Shown one piece after another: positions 41,972-49,121 of a DNA stretch of 64,000 nt; the stretch's first letter is position 1, and each line of letters begins with the position of its first letter. Both the position numbers and the translations under genes were made by a program. The stretch comes from Methanosarcina sp. 2.H.T.1A.6. GTDB lineage: Archaea > Halobacteriota > Methanosarcinia > Methanosarcinales > Methanosarcinaceae. Location of the stretch: the NCBI RefSeq assembly GCF_000979455.1, contig NZ_JJOY01000049.1, positions 186,001 through 250,000 of the forward strand, in the 5' to 3' direction. Under the pieces are notes generated by a model. It did no database searches, had not been told where the DNA came from, and was given only the letters and a program-made list of their open reading frames with translations.

Positions 41972-43228
41972 TCATCTGCTTATTGTTTTTTTCTTTCTGT
42001 AGATTAGAAAGGCTGCAGGGATAAAGACTGCAATAAGTCCACCTGCAATTGCAACTGTAGAGTTTGTCTCAGGAGTCCGGGAATCCGTTTCAAGGTTCAG
42101 ATTACCTGCAACATTTTCGTGCCTGTTGATGCCATTGTTGTAGTTTGCAGTTACATTCATGCTTACGGGTCCCGAAGATTTTTTACCGGTATCCGAGGAA
42201 CTGTCTATCATTGCATCAAACTTTATTGTGAAAAGTTCGTCAGGATCCATAGGTCCGATGAAGTATTCGGCAGGGTAAAACTTTACACCTTCAGCTTTAG
42301 GTCTTATGCTGACAGAGTTTAGTTCATTAGGATGGGTATTTGCTACATCAAACTCTACGGTAGTTGTCCCATCCACCATCTGTAGTGGCTTTGAAGGAAT
42401 TACCTTTATATTCGAAGAATCGACTTTAAGCGGAATGTTCTTCTTGCTGTTGTAGTCAAATGAGTTTCCCTCAATTGCAAGTTCAAAATTGTGAATTCCT
42501 TCCCTTGCATCTTCTTCAACCTCTACATTGAAGGTCAATTTGATACTGTCTCCCGGGCCCACAAGTCCCATTTCATAATATGGAGCTTCCGAAACTCTTA
42601 TTCCGTCAGACAGAGGCCTCAAAACCGCAGCTTGGATTCTCGCATTGGTATCATAGTCTTTTCCATCAATGGTAACTGTAGGCGTAGTTGCTGTATTCTT
42701 AAGAGTTACTGTAACAGTTCCCCTATCTCCAGGCATAAAGACTTCAGGAGACGAAACGATTTCTGCAAGCTCAACGGTACCTTTGCTGGTAAAGGCTTCA
42801 GTACCTATCCTGATATCAAAACTTTTCTCACTCCATGGATTGTCCTTATCAGCCCTGGAGTGAATCTCAATAGGACGAACGCCTTTCTGGGCTTTTTTAT
42901 CAACATACAGATAGAATTCCTTTGTAGCGGTTCTGCCAGGATTGAGAGCTCCAATGTTCTGCACAGTGTTTACATTGGAATCCAGAGAGAAAGGATACTC
43001 AGGGATTATTTTTATGTCAATATCATTGGCTTTGTTCTCTCCGATGTTTTCCACCTGTATGGTCAGGGTCAGGTATTCCCCTATCTTTGCAGGATAAGGA
43101 TTTGTTTCGATAATCGTTACTTTCAGGCTCGGACTACCTACAGCCGCTGAAGCCGGAGACACAAAAACAGAGGCTATCAGAAGTAAAGAAAAAAAAGTTG
43201 CGATGAAATGCTCTTTAATCAATTCCAT
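41972..43228 (-). CDS. COG1361 S-layer-like exoprotein (cassette 2)
   Basis: A 418-residue paralog of the protein at 37493-38749. It has a signal peptide (FIATFFSLLLIASVFVSPASAA, about 8-29), the same three beta-sandwich regions with MPGDRGTVTVTLKNTATTPT, and a C-terminal helix followed by KKKTISR. The middle gene of the intact operon, it starts 20 bp after the ATPase stop. Its anchored, extracytoplasmic position suits contact with the MacB_PCD domain of the permease; this is inference. Confidence 0.86.
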   Translation of the reverse strand: MELIKEHFIATFFSLLLIASVFVSPASAAVGSPSLKVTIIETNPYPAKIGEYLTLTIQVENIGENKANDIDIKIIPEYPFSLDSNVNTVQNIGALNPGRTATKEFYLYVDKKAQKGVRPIEIHSRADKDNPWSEKSFDIRIGTEAFTSKGTVELAEIVSSPEVFMPGDRGTVTVTLKNTATTPTVTIDGKDYDTNARIQAAVLRPLSDGIRVSEAPYYEMGLVGPGDSIKLTFNVEVEEDAREGIHNFELAIEGNSFDYNSKKNIPLKVDSSNIKVIPSKPLQMVDGTTTVEFDVANTHPNELNSVSIRPKAEGVKFYPAEYFIGPMDPDELFTIKFDAMIDSSSDTGKKSSGPVSMNVTANYNNGINRHENVAGNLNLETDSRTPETNSTVAIAGGLIAVFIPAAFLIYRKKKTISR

Positions 43229-43248: not shown

Positions 43249-43953
43249 TTAGTTATATTGAATTACTCCATCTTTTACGAGCACTACCCTGTCAGCATAT
43301 TTTGCGATCTCAGGGTCGTGTGTAACAATAACTACTGTCCTTCCCTCGTTATTCAAATCCATGAATATTCGGAGGATCTCAGAACCTGTTTTTGAGTCCA
43401 GGTTTCCAGTCGGCTCATCAGCAAGGATGAGCGAAGGATCATTGATAAGTGCCCTTGCAATTGAGACCCTCTGAGATTGGCCTCCGGAAAGTTCTCCTGG
43501 CTTGTGGTGCATACGGTCCTGCAGTCCCATAAGTTTCAGGAGTTCCGTTGCACGCTTTCGTGGATCGATGCTCCTCGAATTGGCAAAAGTTGGGAGCAAA
43601 ACATTCTCAAAAGCGGTCAGACGAGGAACAAGGTTGAATGTCTGAAAAACGAAACCTATCTCAAGCCCCCGGAGATGGGCAAGTTCTTCATCTGACATTC
43701 TGTGCAGGTCCCTCCCCCTTATAATCACCTGCCCTTCCGTAGGTCTGTCAAGGCAGCCTATAAGGTTCATTAAAGTACTTTTCCCTGAGCCAGATGGTCC
43801 CATTATAGCCAGGAATTCTCCCTTTTCTATTTTAAGGTTAATACCTGAGAGTACCGGAACTTCCATGTCTCCAAGCACATAACTTTTCCTTACATTGGAA
43901 ACTTCGACAATAGGGTACCTATCCTCAGATAAACTATTCTTATTAATGTTCAC
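43249..43953 (-). CDS. MacB/LolD-type ABC ATPase (cassette 2)
   Basis: A 234-residue ATPase with Walker A GPSGSGKST (about 52-60), Q-loop FVFQTFNLVPRL, signature LSGGQSQRV, Walker B LILADEPTGNLDSKTG and H-loop VTHDPEIAKYAD. It is first in the contiguous operon ATPase-exoprotein-permease. Compared with cassette 1 it lacks the long N-terminal extension. A GGGGAGGGGG-type ribosome binding site lies just ahead of the ATG. Confidence 0.92.
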   Translation of the reverse strand: MNINKNSLSEDRYPIVEVSNVRKSYVLGDMEVPVLSGINLKIEKGEFLAIMGPSGSGKSTLMNLIGCLDRPTEGQVIIRGRDLHRMSDEELAHLRGLEIGFVFQTFNLVPRLTAFENVLLPTFANSRSIDPRKRATELLKLMGLQDRMHHKPGELSGGQSQRVSIARALINDPSLILADEPTGNLDSKTGSEILRIFMDLNNEGRTVVIVTHDPEIAKYADRVVLVKDGVIQYN

Positions 43954-44826
43954 ATCCCCCTCCCCAATTTTACTGAGATATGATCAGAAAAAATCACATT
44001 GAATAATCTCAATTGTTTTTACTCCTTATGTAAGAAAATCCATTTTAATCTATGCTCTCTAAATTTTTTTCAAAAATTGAATTTCAAGTCCAACTGTTGT
44101 CGATTTATGTCTGCCAATGCAGGCTTTTAAAACTGAACTTTGAAAATAAGCACTAGATACACTGTTTTTGACTCTTGAATAGACTATTGAGTTTCAGACA
44201 TGATTTTTGCTTAAAATCACCGGGCATTAAAATAAGCATAGTTTTGGACAGTAGAAATCGGAAGTTAAGATTTGTTTCTGGTAGCATATGGCTTTTGCAG
44301 GAAATTTGTGCTCCCATCCCGAGACCTATCTTTGTTATTTTAAACTGCTTTCTCTCATACATCGGTTGTATAAATGTAATAGACAAAATCGAAAAACCGC
44401 AGTCTCTGAACCAATCAGTTTCAAAAAGTTATTCTTTAGCCGGGGCAGGCATCCAAATATTCAGGTCAAGGTTAAAATCTAAGTGAAACATTCAAACATC
44501 TATTGTATTAAAAAATATATGCCCTGTTATACAGGAGCTTGCCTCCAAATATTTGAGATCTATTATTCATAAGGAGATGTAATTCTGTCCAATTTATATA
44601 ATCTTGTATATATAGCTAAATATAGCCACTGCCAGTTAGAAATTTGAACTGTATATCTCAAGAATAAAAGAAATTCTCAGCAATAATCTTTCTAAGTGGC
44701 TGAAAGAGTCGCAAGCTTTGGAGGCTTGATAAAGAAGGCTGTAAACAAACATTTCAGAGAAGTGCACTCAAAAGAGTGTACACAAGAACCGGTGTGAAAA
44801 GAATATGACATGTGGAGGGAGTAAAT
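43954..44826. other. AT-rich region upstream of the micro-ORF cluster
   Basis: No supported gene; open frames at 44153-44486 on both strands have no ribosome binding site or family signal. TATA-like TTTATATAATCTTGTATATATA (around 44593-44614) is a possible promoter for the micro-ORF cluster. A hairpin GTGCACTC AAAA GAGTGTAC lies at about 44762-44781. Confidence 0.4.
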
Positions 44827-44904
44827 ATGTTTTTTGGAATTAATCTCGGTATGTTTTTTGCGGTTGTTTTTAACTTTAACCTCGGTATGCTCTTCGGCTT
44901 CTAA
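44827..44904 (+). CDS. 25-residue hydrophobic micro-ORF (MFF type 1)
   Basis: ATG at 44827 opens a 25-codon frame ending at TAA 44902. It begins MFFGINLGMFF and ends NLGMLFGF; the motif NLGM-F occurs twice, so the peptide is an internal repeat. All residues are uncharged and mostly Phe, Leu, Gly, Val and Met, giving one membrane-spanning segment. GTGGAGGGAG lies 6-8 nt upstream. The same leader occurs before the other micro-ORFs in this cluster. No known family is recognised. Confidence 0.55.
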   Translation: MFFGINLGMFFAVVFNFNLGMLFGF

Positions 44905-44955
44905 TCGCGATTGTTAGATCGAGGTCTTAGTTAAGTTGATTGCACGTATGATGAA

Positions 44956-45027
44956 ATATGGATAATTACAGAAACAAAAATCTGGATAATTACAGAAACA
45001 AAAATCTGGATAATTGCAGAAACAAGA
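44956..45027. repeat. 24-bp tandem repeat, three copies
   Basis: The unit is close to GGATAATTACAGAAACAAAA plus ATCT. It sits directly upstream of the second micro-ORF and merges into its ribosome binding site. Confidence 0.7.
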
Positions 45028-45039
45028 GAGGTAATGAAA

Positions 45040-45117
45040 ATGTTCTTCAATCTTGTATATTCAAAGATCATCAGATATTACGAAGCAACCTTCTTCAGCT
45101 TCACTTACTGGATCTGA
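45040..45117 (+). CDS. 25-residue aromatic micro-ORF (MFF type 2, copy 1)
   Basis: A 25-codon frame beginning MFFNLVYSKIIRYYEA and ending in SFTYWI, followed by TGA. AGAGGT lies 7 nt upstream; an in-frame ATG two codons earlier (45034) is too close to it. The peptide is amphipathic with four Tyr/Trp residues plus Phe and Ile, a basic KIIR centre and one Glu. Two further near-identical copies follow at 45283 and 45648. A 93-codon frame overlaps it in another phase but is not conserved in the copies. Confidence 0.6.
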   Translation: MFFNLVYSKIIRYYEATFFSFTYWI

Positions 45118-45282
45118 TAAGGTTACATTGTAATAATCATGAAGGTCTCTGCCTGGATGTTTATCAAGGATATTGGGAATCCTGGGAGTCATTTATTAAC
45201 AATTTTCCGATAATCACGATTGCAGAAGACCGTGTATAACGGGGGATGAACAAAATACAGGAAAAGAGTGGAGGGAACTGAA

Positions 45283-45360
45283 ATGTTCTTCAACCTTGTA
45301 TATTCAAAGATCATCAGATATTACGAAGCAACCTTCCTCAGCTTCACTTACTGGATCTGA
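45283..45360 (+). CDS. 25-residue aromatic micro-ORF (MFF type 2, copy 2)
   Basis: The same length, start and stop phase as copy 1. It differs in protein sequence only by Leu for Phe at residue 19 and by a silent change in the Asn-4 codon. GGAGGGA lies 7 nt upstream of the ATG. The repeat unit linking copies 1 and 2 is 243 bp long and includes spacer and leader. Confidence 0.65.
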   Translation: MFFNLVYSKIIRYYEATFLSFTYWI

Positions 45361-45430
45361 TAAGGTTACATTGTAATAATCATGAAGGTCTCTGCCTGGA
45401 TGTTATCACGGATATCGGAATTTATTTATT

Positions 45431-45559
45431 GAGCTTATCCCAAAACCAATTTTAGTCTCTAATCAGTAAAGTTTCAGAACTATTTTCATGATCCGAAACT
45501 CTATTGATTATTCTGAATACGAGATTTAGAGAAGCAATTTTGAGTTTTGGGATCGGCTT
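45431..45559. mobile_element. 129-bp MITE, copy A
   Basis: Ends are GAGCTTATCCCAAAAC on the left and, reversed, AAGCCGATCCCAAAAC on the right. ATT is duplicated at 45428-45430 and 45560-45562. The spacer between micro-ORF copies 1 and 2 holds the same site uninterrupted (around 45192-45202, ATTTATTAACAAT). This gives a natural empty site and fixes the boundaries. Confidence 0.85.
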
Positions 45560-45647
45560 ATTAACAACTTTCCGATAGTCCCAATTGCAGAAGACCGTGT
45601 ATAACGGGGGATGAACAAAATACAGGAAAAGAGTGGAGGGAACTGAA

Positions 45648-45725
45648 ATGTTCTTCAACCTTGTATATTCAAAGATCATCAGATACTACGAAGCAACCTT
45701 TATCAGCTTCACTTACTGGATCTAA
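45648..45725 (+). CDS. 25-residue aromatic micro-ORF (MFF type 2, copy 3)
   Basis: The same 25-codon frame as copies 1 and 2, with Ile at residue 19 and silent changes in other codons (for example TAT to TAC and TTC to TTT). It ends with TAA rather than TGA. The GGAGGGA leader is unchanged. Substitutions across the three copies are silent or swap Phe, Leu and Ile, the pattern of a selected hydrophobic peptide. Confidence 0.65.
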   Translation: MFFNLVYSKIIRYYEATFISFTYWI

Positions 45726-45767
45726 TTAGGCAGCAATACCGGTGAAAAAATTAGATACTTATATGAA

Positions 45768-45797
45768 GTTGCCTGCTTTTCAGGCAACTTTATCTTT
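45768..45797 (+). terminator. Terminator after the micro-ORF cluster
   Basis: A perfect 8-bp stem GTTGCCTG (45768-45775)/CAGGCAAC (45781-45788) is followed by TTTATCTTT. It lies 43 nt past the third type 2 micro-ORF, marking the end of a plus-strand transcript. Confidence 0.7.
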
Positions 45798-46440
45798 ACA
45801 AAAGAAGTCTGTAATTATAACTTTTTTACTTTTCCTATATTTCATAATTATTTTCTTTATTTGATGGTTTTTTTACTTTTTTAATAGCTTCATCTATTTT
45901 TAATTTACTCTCTAATATATAATATAAAAGACATACGTAATATTTGAAATCACATTAAAAGCATCAATTTAGGGAGTGGGTTCAATATTTTTTAGACATT
46001 GTAATTTTCTGTATGGCATTCTGAGAGATGAATCACGTAGTTTAATAAAAAAACAATATGTATAGACGGTCTAGCTTTTTGTCACAATGAATTATTCTGT
46101 ATCTAAATACTCAAAGACTACTATTTGTAAGGAGTAGTCGTTCTTTACATTATATATAAATTCATAATATACCTGTATATTGATACTCCTTTAGCAACTA
46201 TAATTAGGGCTAAAAGTCCTAATATGCTCAGATCATTTTAAATATAGTCATCAATCAAATACAAAGTTTCTAGCTATTGAATCTAAAACCCTTAAAGCCC
46301 TTAAGCTTTTTAGCTAGATATCTCTGCAATTGTTTGATGTCTGCTATAGTTCAAGAATAGGTGTGGGAGTATAAAGCGGAATGGGGGGTTGGAGAAGAGA
46401 ACCGGTAAATCATTGAAAATTGGGCTCAATTTCGGTTTAA
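45798..46440. other. AT-rich region without a gene
   Basis: No supported gene. A hairpin GACTACT (46116-46122)/AGTAGTC (46133-46139) is followed by GTTCTTT. Confidence 0.4.
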
Positions 46441-46569
46441 GAGCTTATCTCAAAACTCACAATTTGCTTTTTGAATCTTGGAGTTTGGAGAATCAGTCAA
46501 GTTTCGGATAATTATAGATAACCCTGAAATACCTTAATAATTAGAATAAAACAGGTTTGAGATCGGCTC
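46441..46569. mobile_element. 129-bp MITE, copy B
   Basis: Same length and end sequences as copy A: left GAGCTTATCTCAAAAC, right reversed GAGCCGATCTCAAACC. Flanked by the 3-bp duplication TAA (46438-46440 and 46570-46572). Confidence 0.8.
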
Positions 46570-46626
46570 TAAAGGAAATGGCTTTGAACGAGGAAGAACA
46601 GCATTCTAGGAGTGGAGGGATTTATA

Positions 46627-46725
46627 ATGTTTTTCTATTTAAACTACATAAAGATTACTTTCTATATGCAGATCGAAAGGTTAAGAATAATGTATATAAG
46701 TGGCTATGGAGTCCTCAACAGGTAA
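46627..46725 (+). CDS. 32-residue micro-ORF (MFF type 3)
   Basis: ATG at 46627 opens 32 codons, beginning MFFYLNYIKITFYMQIER and ending GYGVLNR. The Met-Phe-Phe start, Tyr/Ile/Phe-rich first half and the leader GAGTGGAGGGA match the type 2 micro-ORFs about 1 kb upstream. It lies just downstream of MITE copy B. No function is known. Confidence 0.5.
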   Translation: MFFYLNYIKITFYMQIERLRIMYISGYGVLNR

Positions 46726-46762
46726 AGTGCACGTTTAGACGTTTACTGGTCAGCCTTTGAAT

Positions 46763-46826
46763 AATGGGACAGTAAGGACTCAAGTGCTTGTTCAACGAAA
46801 GATTGTGGCATCCTTACTGTTTCATT
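46763..46826. repeat. 64-bp hairpin-forming inverted repeat
   Basis: Sixteen-base arms, AATGGGACAGTAAGGA (46763-46778) and TCCTTACTGTTTCATT (46811-46826), pair with two mismatches across a 32-nt loop. It could be the folded end of the micro-ORF transcript, a small RNA or a very short MITE. Confidence 0.55.
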
Positions 46827-47028
46827 GTCAATGGTAATCCAGAATAATCGTGTGAGATAAACTATTCAGAAGGAGAAGTAAACATAGAGCTTCAGCCGGA
46901 ATAAATCTATTACATGTGACAATTTTCCTTCTGGGTTTAGTTAACCCGATCTAGAGATTTATCCGGTTGGAGATCTAAAATCTTGAGGGTTTTTGATTCA
47001 TCAAAAAGGAAATGGAATAAATTTTATA

Positions 47029-47136
47029 ACAAGTATTTAACTAATTTTCAAAAATATAAAATTAAAAACTTTTACTGCGTTTATTACAAGTATTTTACTA
47101 ATTTTCAAAAATATAAAATTAAAAACTTTTACTGCG
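47029..47136. repeat. 51-bp direct repeat in tandem
   Basis: 47029-47079 and 47086-47136 are virtually identical (one base differs), with a 57-bp period. The repeat is AT-rich and non-coding as far as can be judged. Confidence 0.85.
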
Positions 47137-47324
47137 GAAAGTCGGATGCAGTGGTCAGAAGAGAATTAGAGGTCCAAAGATAATTCAAAGTCAAGAAAGA
47201 ATCAAAGCCAGAAACAAATATCTTCGTAAAATTCTGCTATCAAAAAATTACCCGAATTCCGAAAACTTCACTGCTCCCGGAATCCTGAAAAATAAGAAAA
47301 AGAATAAGTTTAGAAATGGAAAAT

Positions 47325-49121
47325 TTATTTTTTCACACTTCTTGAGCTACCGCTGCTTCTTGAGCTACCGCTGCTTCTTGAGCTACCGCTGCTTCTTGAG
47401 CTGCCGTCACCTCTTGAGCCACCACCGTTGCCTCTTGAGCCACCGTTGCTTCTTGAGCCACCGTTGCTTCTTGAGCTGCCGTTGCCTCTTGAGCCACCGT
47501 TGCTGCTCCCATCGTTTGAGCCTTTTGTGCTTCTTCCCCTGGATTTCTGGGCAAGTTCCACGAAAGGTTTGCTTCCTTTTCTTTTATTTTTGAAGATGTC
47601 AAGCAGGGCTTCAGCCTGAGCAAAGGGGATGGATACGAAGGAGAAGTGGGGGAAAATCTCTGCGTCCCTTAAGTTCATTTCGCTGTCCCCGATTTCCTGC
47701 TGTATGAAATCGGCCAGTTTTTCCGGAGTCATGCCGTCGGCTTTTCCCATGGCTATGAAGATCCTGGTTTTGCCTTTTCTGTCGACATAGGAGCTGCCTT
47801 CGGAAATTTCAGTGTACATGCTCTCGTCGAACTTTTCCTTGAAGGCATACTTTAAAAGGGCAGCCAGGATTTTTTCTGCGGGGTATTCCTCAAGGAGCTT
47901 TTCGCTCATCCCAAGGCAGTCCCCATATTCTTCTGTCTTTATAGTGTTTTCGAGTTCGGCTTTTACTCTTGCCCTTTTGGCTTTTATTACATCTTTTATC
48001 GCAGGGATGCGGCCTTTCTTCATTTCTGACTTTGAGGTCTTCTGTATGTAAGTGAGCCGCCTGAATTCCGAGGATGTAACAAAGGTGATAGCAGTTCCCT
48101 GTTTGCCTGCCCTTCCTGTCCTTCCTATCCTGTGCACATAAGACTCTGGGTCCTGGGGCAAGGTATAGTTGATGACATGGGTCAGGTCCATGATATCAAT
48201 TCCTCTTGCTGCAACATCGGTTGCTGCGAGGATGTGTATCTTTTGCTTCCTGAACTTGTTAAGGATTTTTTCCCGCTCCTGCTGGGAAATGTCTCCGTGA
48301 AGGGCATCAGCTAAATAACCCCTGTCGCTGAGTTTCTGAGCAAGCTGGCTGGTGTCGATCTTTGTCCTACAGAATACAAGCCCGTAGAATTCATCTTCGA
48401 TGTCGATGATTCTGCAGAGGGCTTCAAACTTGTCGCTTTCCTTAACCTCAAAATATATCTGTTCGGTCAGGTTTGCTGTAATTTCTTCTTTCTCAATTGT
48501 AACATGCTCGTAGTTCCGCATGTACTTCTTGACGATTCCAAGGATTGTCTTTGGCATTGTGGCTGAAAAGAAAAGCATCCTTTTATCAGGGCCTGTTGCC
48601 TTTAAGATTTCCTTTATATCATCAATAAAGCCCATGTTCAGCATTTCGTCGGCTTCGTCAAGTACGAAATACGAGATATGTTCGAGATTGAGGCTCTTTC
48701 TTTCAATGTGGTCGATGACCCTTCCCGGGGTTCCTACGACAATGTCCACACCAGTTTTCAACATGCGAAGCTGCTGGGTCATGGACTGCCCGCCATATAT
48801 AGGGGCAATATACAGTTTTTTATCTCCTTTTAGGGAGTTAAGCTCTTCTGAAACCTGGATTGCGAGTTCCCTTGTAGGGGTCAGGATTATTGCCTTAACA
48901 TGTCCTGATTTCTCTGGAATTTTCTCTATAATGGGGGCTCCGAAAGCTGTTGTTTTTCCTGTCCCTGTCTGAGCCTGCCCTATAATATCAGATTCTCCTT
49001 TCAAAAAAAGTGGAATTACCTTTTCCTGAATCGGGGTTGGTTCTTCAAACCCTTTCTTTTTGAGGGCTTTCAATGTACTGTCCGAGAGCCCAAGCGCCTT
49101 AAATTTTGCTAATTTTTCCAT
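47325..49121 (-). CDS. DEAD-box RNA helicase (DeaD/DbpA-like)
   Basis: A 598-residue ATP-dependent RNA helicase. It has the Q motif (FEEPTPIQEKVIP), AQTGTGKTTAFG, PTRELA, VLDEADEMLNMGF, FFSATMP, VATDVAARGID-type block and HRIGRTGRAGKQG in order. A DbpA-type RNA-binding domain follows at about 455-530. The C-terminal ~65 residues are a Gly/Ser/Arg/Asn repeat (GSRSNG, then SSRSSGSSRS), an RGG-like unstructured tail. Archaeal homologs are often cold-induced. Long 5' flanking DNA (49122-49632) leaves room for a regulated leader. Confidence 0.94.
   Translation of the reverse strand: MEKLAKFKALGLSDSTLKALKKKGFEEPTPIQEKVIPLFLKGESDIIGQAQTGTGKTTAFGAPIIEKIPEKSGHVKAIILTPTRELAIQVSEELNSLKGDKKLYIAPIYGGQSMTQQLRMLKTGVDIVVGTPGRVIDHIERKSLNLEHISYFVLDEADEMLNMGFIDDIKEILKATGPDKRMLFFSATMPKTILGIVKKYMRNYEHVTIEKEEITANLTEQIYFEVKESDKFEALCRIIDIEDEFYGLVFCRTKIDTSQLAQKLSDRGYLADALHGDISQQEREKILNKFRKQKIHILAATDVAARGIDIMDLTHVINYTLPQDPESYVHRIGRTGRAGKQGTAITFVTSSEFRRLTYIQKTSKSEMKKGRIPAIKDVIKAKRARVKAELENTIKTEEYGDCLGMSEKLLEEYPAEKILAALLKYAFKEKFDESMYTEISEGSSYVDRKGKTRIFIAMGKADGMTPEKLADFIQQEIGDSEMNLRDAEIFPHFSFVSIPFAQAEALLDIFKNKRKGSKPFVELAQKSRGRSTKGSNDGSSNGGSRGNGSSRSNGGSRSNGGSRGNGGGSRGDGSSRSSGSSRSSGSSRSSGSSRSVKK

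Follow-up and report, generated by a model that had tools for sequence, protein, structure and literature searches.

An array of conserved, promoter-defined micropeptide genes in Methanosarcina

Our analysis concerns a cluster of very short genes in a 4.07-Mb Methanosarcina genome. The window, the whole stretch of DNA that was analysed, comprises 64,000 nucleotides (positions 186,001-250,000 of contig NZ_JJOY01000049.1). Five micro-ORFs beginning Met-Phe-Phe had been predicted from this DNA, and all five were located where they had been placed. They are gene A (44827-44904), encoding MFFGINLGMFFAVVFNFNLGMLFGF from an ATG start, genes B1 (45040-45117, MFFNLVYSKIIRYYEATFFSFTYWI), B2 (45283-45360, MFFNLVYSKIIRYYEATFLSFTYWI) and B3 (45648-45725, MFFNLVYSKIIRYYEATFISFTYWI), which like A specify 25 amino acids, and gene C (46627-46725, MFFYLNYIKITFYMQIERLRIMYISGYGVLNR, 32 amino acids). 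As described, A, B2, B3 and C follow the leader GTGGAGGGA and B1 follows AGAGGT. The stretch had been said to lack ordinary genes, which holds for positions 43954-47324; beyond it lie a divergent ABC ATPase gene and, on the other flank, a DEAD-box helicase gene (47325-49121, reverse strand). Five frames with a Shine-Dalgarno sequence, ATG-TTY-TTY and 20-40 codons occupy 3.4 kb, all on the forward strand, while first-order Markov simulation of the region gave a mean of 0.0015 such frames and a maximum of one in 2000 trials. B1, B2 and B3 differ from each other at residue 19 alone (Phe, Leu or Ile) and each sits in one of three repeats of ~134-194 nt, in keeping with the tandem copies first proposed. 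However, the five frames had been treated as a single set, and they actually represent three unrelated families (A, B and C). Three 24-nt direct repeats (GATAATTACAGAAACAAAAATCTG, 44954-45025) are found directly 5′ of B1, and a spacer motif, GTGTATAACGGGGANGAACAAAAT, is kept before B copies (e.g., at 45236-45270), where it might be an RNA processing or regulatory site. The interval between C and the helicase gene contains a 57-nt tandem duplication with 96% identity (47023-47136).

With a single sequence as query, homologues came up in three relatives, two of which have them in tandem. The original prediction had called for a search for like frames elsewhere in Methanosarcina, and a census of 31 genomes, performed with profile searches and by reading the syntenic loci, recovered the A-B-C arrangement in 22, with one to three A, two to seven B and then C. 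In 21 of these the array lies at the same site on one strand. Family A is present in 22 genomes at 1-3 copies each, C in 22 genomes at one copy each, and B amounts to 79 copies across 21 genomes plus three in G013, where the locus is rearranged, C being encoded on the strand opposite to A and the three B. Layouts include an A-B-B unit present three times and followed by C (G026), and seven B with three A (G028 and G004). Most B copies (62 of 79) resemble copies within their own genome. We take G015, G030 and G008 to be M. acetivorans C2A, M. barkeri MS and M. mazei S-6, respectively, and MFLSLFYKAVEIAYTSTVFKFFYCM and MFLYLNYTKISLYLEIVHLKILQMSGYGTLNR are presumably the M. mazei array copies. 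Most synteny is accounted for by vertical inheritance. In G006, the locus and its promoters are kept, and A and B are replaced by an unrelated peptide of 32 aa (MFDTLIGIGNFAIQTATGNAFIAQIIGQWTWV, L098:3362-3880) that is present in four tandem copies; 3′ of these come a weak frame resembling B and a C that has diverged. At a contig end in G011, an A-type promoter is followed by an A-like frame and by tandem frames of 27 aa. Profile searches gave no B or C match in G001, G003, G005 and G027, each ~99% complete, and A, B and C profiles found nothing convincing outside the genus. A viral origin was also considered and rejected, the C profile having turned up nothing related among viral contigs.

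Pairwise dN/dS told us little, owing to the short length of the frames, saturation and the mixing of paralogues, and a permutation test was therefore used in its place. Between-genome pairs were formed with each sequence used once, and the same substitutions were placed at random sites. The summed BLOSUM62 score exceeded all 500 nulls for A (z=4.9, 12 pairs), B (z=12.6, 37 pairs) and C (z=7.4, 10 pairs). The null would yield stops in 3.6 (A), 17.9 (B) and 3.6 (C) pairs and none was observed, although this is partly due to the selection of open frames. An independent genome search that reads through stops yielded 80 B matches, all of them free of stops. Of 21 indels that fall within frames, 19 have lengths divisible by three, as opposed to 44 of 397 in the flanks (44 vs 353), counts that are not independent since the pairs share history. 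It had been stated that stops or frameshifts in homologous loci would argue against the prediction; that outcome did not arise, with B matches lacking stops and indels in frame by 19 to 2. In each of the three families, codon position 2 is the least variable. TTC, TAC and CTC are favoured in the array more than in neighbouring genes, a small reference set, and this codon use is compatible with high expression. We regard A, B and C as almost certainly translated, co-regulated genes, and the pattern of change within the genus is that of peptides under purifying selection. Neutral duplication, which had been put forward, is thus unlikely for the peptides, even if the number of copies is free to vary (2-7 for B, 1-3 for A). 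The flanking UTRs and spacers are conserved at the DNA level about as well as the frames; therefore, the mRNAs are constrained beyond the peptides they encode, and the array mRNA may act as RNA besides coding.

The A-B operon is preceded by a promoter at 44560-44601 (forward strand), with an upstream element, CTATTATTCATAAGGAGATGTAATTCT, followed by a TATA box, TTTATATAA. This block was aligned in 21 genomes and matches the promoter pattern given below with no mismatches. A promoter of the same class (CTACTATTTGTAAGGAGTAGTCGTTCT and TATATATAA, 46118-46159, forward strand) precedes C; its block was aligned in 19 genomes and also matches the pattern. These two are the only matches to the element in the window, where 0.1 would be expected. 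By analogy, transcription of the A-B operon would start ~25 nt past the TATA box, leaving a non-coding 5′ leader at 44626-44826 (forward strand) that is highly conserved at its 5′ end and deleted in the middle in some species. An amphipathic-looking GTG frame within it (44696-44797, MAERVASFGGLIKKAV...) was rejected on account of deletion of the region in several species and frame-breaking indels. A riboswitch-like structured leader was likewise rejected: the consensus fold of the A leader, the one leader folded, contains just a weak conserved 5-bp stem (5 pairs, -1.24 kcal/mol), with no evident sequestration of the Shine-Dalgarno sequence. No Rfam covariance model matched the locus at its gathering threshold. 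No sense TATA box was found inside the 21 A-B spans examined, and A and B are therefore most simply read as one transcript. Downstream of B3, at 45765-45791 (forward strand), is the terminator-like hairpin that had been noted after the third tandem copy (GAAGTTGCCTG-CTTTT-CAGGCAACTTT, 11 pairs). A hairpin 3′ of the last B is present in all 22 full-array genomes, and among 17 aligned hairpins 96.8% of cells are paired and four pairs have changed on both sides, a level reached by none of 500 shuffles. A possible hairpin 3′ of C (46760-46830, ACAGTAAGGA / TCCTTACTGT) is perhaps the C terminator. At the level of sequence, we regard conserved coding, the array architecture, the operon layout, the terminator hairpin and the shared promoter class as established.

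The promoter class extends well beyond the array. The pattern CTATTANTNNTAAGNAN7TTCTN6TTTATATAA, allowing up to three mismatches, has matches in 29 of the 31 genomes (up to 11 per genome), and a reversed control pattern has none in the 31. Among 57 other promoter sites, 37 have a Shine-Dalgarno-led micro-ORF +240 to +420 nt downstream, compared to 3.6% of random positions. Of these micro-ORFs, 27 are Gly/Cys-rich (e.g., MWFGNCGWGGCGGWGWRRWRGCGWGGCGGWW, with TAVRACC in longer ones), eight are aromatic and two are of other kinds. Tandem B-like pairs adjoin genes of this kind in G015 and G009. Trp/Arg/Cys-rich peptides under the same control carry a positive charge (+3 to +5). Behind such promoters, micropeptides rich in Gly, Cys and Trp occur genus-wide, as do longer Gly/Cys-rich proteins bearing a (C)C[VI]TAVRACC motif (L223-L232, L238, L241, L243, L247, L257). 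The class also lies upstream of a catalase, alpha/beta hydrolases and a hormone-sensitive-lipase-type esterase; the catalase and the alpha/beta hydrolase or lipase genes were seen at L245:1416-2788, L143, L142, L254 and L261. Because the class precedes these genes, a few large ones, we infer that the array promoters respond to stress or growth arrest.

Next to the array, on the reverse strand, are genes for a MacB/LolD-type ABC ATPase (43249-43953; Pfam ABC_tran, with NCBIfam MacB/LolD hits below the equivalog cut-offs) and for the CARDB-domain envelope protein of this array-adjacent ABC paralogue (41972-43228; Pfam CARDB), the former a possible partner of the peptides. MacB-type CARDB/ABC operons are found family-wide, mostly without arrays. 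In a tree of 47 CARDB proteins, one clade of 24 rows contains 23 array-adjacent copies (support 100/99), the sole unlabelled row being G013_a, from a genome in which the A-B array and C are on a contig other than that of the ABC genes. CARDB copies from G064 and G067, which belong to another genus, fall inside this Methanosarcina clade (support 100/98). Both genomes have tandem arrays of a 21-aa aromatic peptide (MLDFLIFAFNEFWFSYFQFYI; L103:4790-5630 and L150:2375-4006, reverse strands) divergent from the ABC copy, and their congeners G065 and G066 have neither the array nor that ABC copy. This suggests that the ABC/CARDB module was transferred, probably horizontally, together with an array. 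Partnership with the ABC genes is not obligatory, since the linkage is broken in G013 and no CARDB gene was detected in G011, where an array is present. We consider it less likely than not that the ABC module handles the array peptides.

All three peptide families have favourable interface transfer energies, with mean GRAVY values of 1.15 (A), 0.55 (B) and 0.49 (C). A is strongly hydrophobic with a slight negative charge, B is aromatic and near neutral, and C is basic (mean +3.5). AlphaFold predicts helices at residues 2-24 of C (mean pLDDT 82.8) and 5-30 of A from G020 (pLDDT 75.3). Peptides of the cluster had been called amphipathic, which the helical moments do not bear out, as they are not clearly above those of shuffled sequences (z of -0.1 for A, 0.8 for B and 0.1 for C). 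The original prediction recognized no family match, and we found none for A, B or C in Pfam, NCBIfam, PHROGs and PADLOC; queries of the PDB with B and C gave no convincing match, the weak ones having E values of 0.05 and above and covering fragments only. With frames and proteins conserved genus-wide, strong Shine-Dalgarno sequences, shared promoters and no known family, the suggestion of an undescribed peptide system stands. Literature searches found no description of A-B-C arrays. We regard the peptide families and the array system as previously unrecognised, and single frames may already stand in supplementary sORF tables.

Based upon these observations, we predict that the three peptides are made in large amounts under stress control and act on the membrane, perhaps with the ABC module handling them, a model to which we give about an even chance. 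As read from the sequence, a first unit is a polycistronic A-B(n) mRNA running from one conserved promoter to the conserved terminator hairpin, in which every cistron has a strong Shine-Dalgarno sequence of its own, and a second unit consists of C alone, from the other promoter of this class. Duplication of B in tandem, along with homogenisation of its copies, raises the number of translated cistrons per mRNA. A regulator, probably responsive to stress or growth arrest, would trigger a burst in which all three peptides are made. As an uncharged-to-acidic, very hydrophobic helix (A), an aromatic near-neutral peptide (B) and a basic helix (C), the products could embed themselves in the cytoplasmic membrane or envelope, or cover it, and act jointly in bulk, not as enzymes. 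The array-adjacent MacB-type ABC/CARDB paralogue would be the most likely partner, either moving the peptides from membrane to envelope or clearing them. Judged from sequence, we put the odds at about even that the three peptides work at the membrane or envelope when the cell is stressed. A broader reading, which we offer tentatively and rate a little short of even, is that of a Methanosarcina micropeptide regulon, in which one promoter class and one regulator would drive several unrelated families of very short peptides, aromatic or Gly/Cys/Trp-rich, in tandem arrays, some of them replaced inside a fixed ABC-linked locus, to serve as a stress-induced coat of the membrane or envelope or as an exported weapon. 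No archaeal counterpart of such a regulon was found in the literature searched.

Alternatively, the products could be secreted, leaderless membrane-active peptides, similar to phenol-soluble modulins or archaeocins, that leave the cell through the adjacent ABC paralogue and serve against competitors or in surface behaviour. Under that proposal the peptides would diversify fast while the export module and promoter are retained, and G006, G011, G064 and G067 do keep the array, promoter or ABC context with differing peptides; the nesting of another genus's ABC paralogue in the array clade and the positive charge of the co-regulated Trp/Arg/Cys-rich peptides are also in its favour. We consider it unlikely, given purifying selection on A, B and C within the genus, the acidic A and neutral B, the family-wide ABC/CARDB operons that mostly lack arrays, and the broken linkage in G013 and G011. 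The resemblance to type I toxins that had been pointed out raises the prospect of dormancy or toxin peptides like TisB, Ldr and Ibs, which would act on the cell itself by depolarising its membrane under stress, with an antisense RNA or a leader RNA to restrain them. The size and hydrophobicity of the peptides, their tandem copies and the stress-type promoter fit this, and ZorO-type type I toxins are found as tandem small hydrophobic genes (PMC8309996). Nevertheless, membership is not supported and we give the proposal a low probability. A check for antisense RNA over the cluster, made as a promoter-motif scan that an unusual promoter could escape, showed TATA-like antisense sites in just three of 21 A-B spans, none of them conserved, and no antitoxin was identified; the A leader shows a weak stem and no evident sequestration of the Shine-Dalgarno sequence, and type I systems have so far been reported from three bacterial phyla only (PMC12390103). 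Just as improbable in our estimation is a part in a membrane protein complex, as small stable subunits or as regulators comparable to MtrI/MtrR; the three peptides would then make up one defined assembly whose stoichiometry is set by copy number. The three co-regulated families are always found together and have complementary charges, and M. mazei is known to have small proteins that bind membrane complexes (PMC12774963, PMC13370731). In contrast to fixed subunits, however, copy number differs among close species, several complete Methanosarcina genomes have no array, and an unrelated peptide substitutes in G006. Finally, it is very improbable that the transcripts are chiefly regulatory RNAs with frames that are incidental or merely set RNA stability, for although conservation of the leaders and of the spacers between cistrons is close to that of the frames, protein conservation far exceeds the nucleotide-matched null, indels are in frame, Shine-Dalgarno sequences are strong, stops are absent and the locus has no Rfam match.

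In summary, what looked like chance micro-ORFs is a conserved, promoter-defined gene system that also occurs in model species with genetics and Ribo-seq. It gives testable genes for the role of tandem micropeptides in archaea, a new archaeal promoter element, likely under stress control, and a marker for small genes overlooked by annotation.

The array shares features with three known groups. Similar to the type I toxins TisB, Ldr, Ibs and ZorO, which are hydrophobic peptides of 20-35 aa, often in tandem and in some cases behind stress promoters, it encodes small hydrophobic peptides (25-32 aa in the window). It differs from them in being polycistronic, with a Shine-Dalgarno sequence per cistron and no indication of an antisense RNA gene, and in comprising three unrelated families in an archaeon. 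The phenol-soluble modulins of staphylococci are short, leaderless peptides encoded in tandem and linked genetically to an ABC transporter. The array has the same combination of short leaderless tandem peptides and a linked ABC transporter, but the sequences are unrelated, the peptides are not clearly amphipathic (the helical moments of A, B and C did not stand out from shuffles), and the ABC protein is MacB-like rather than PmtABCD-like. As for a dedicated exporter, the adjacent ABC paralogue forms its own clade, with the link broken in G013 and G011. Searches of the main text of PMC11456600 turned up neither tandem A-B-C arrays nor the promoter class. The small proteins of M. mazei (the spRNA/sORF set, PMC11456600, along with MtrI and MtrR) come from unannotated intergenic sORFs and are in some cases hydrophobic and membrane-associated. 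The array genes resemble these in belonging to the same genus, in being unannotated intergenic sORFs and in the hydrophobicity of their products.
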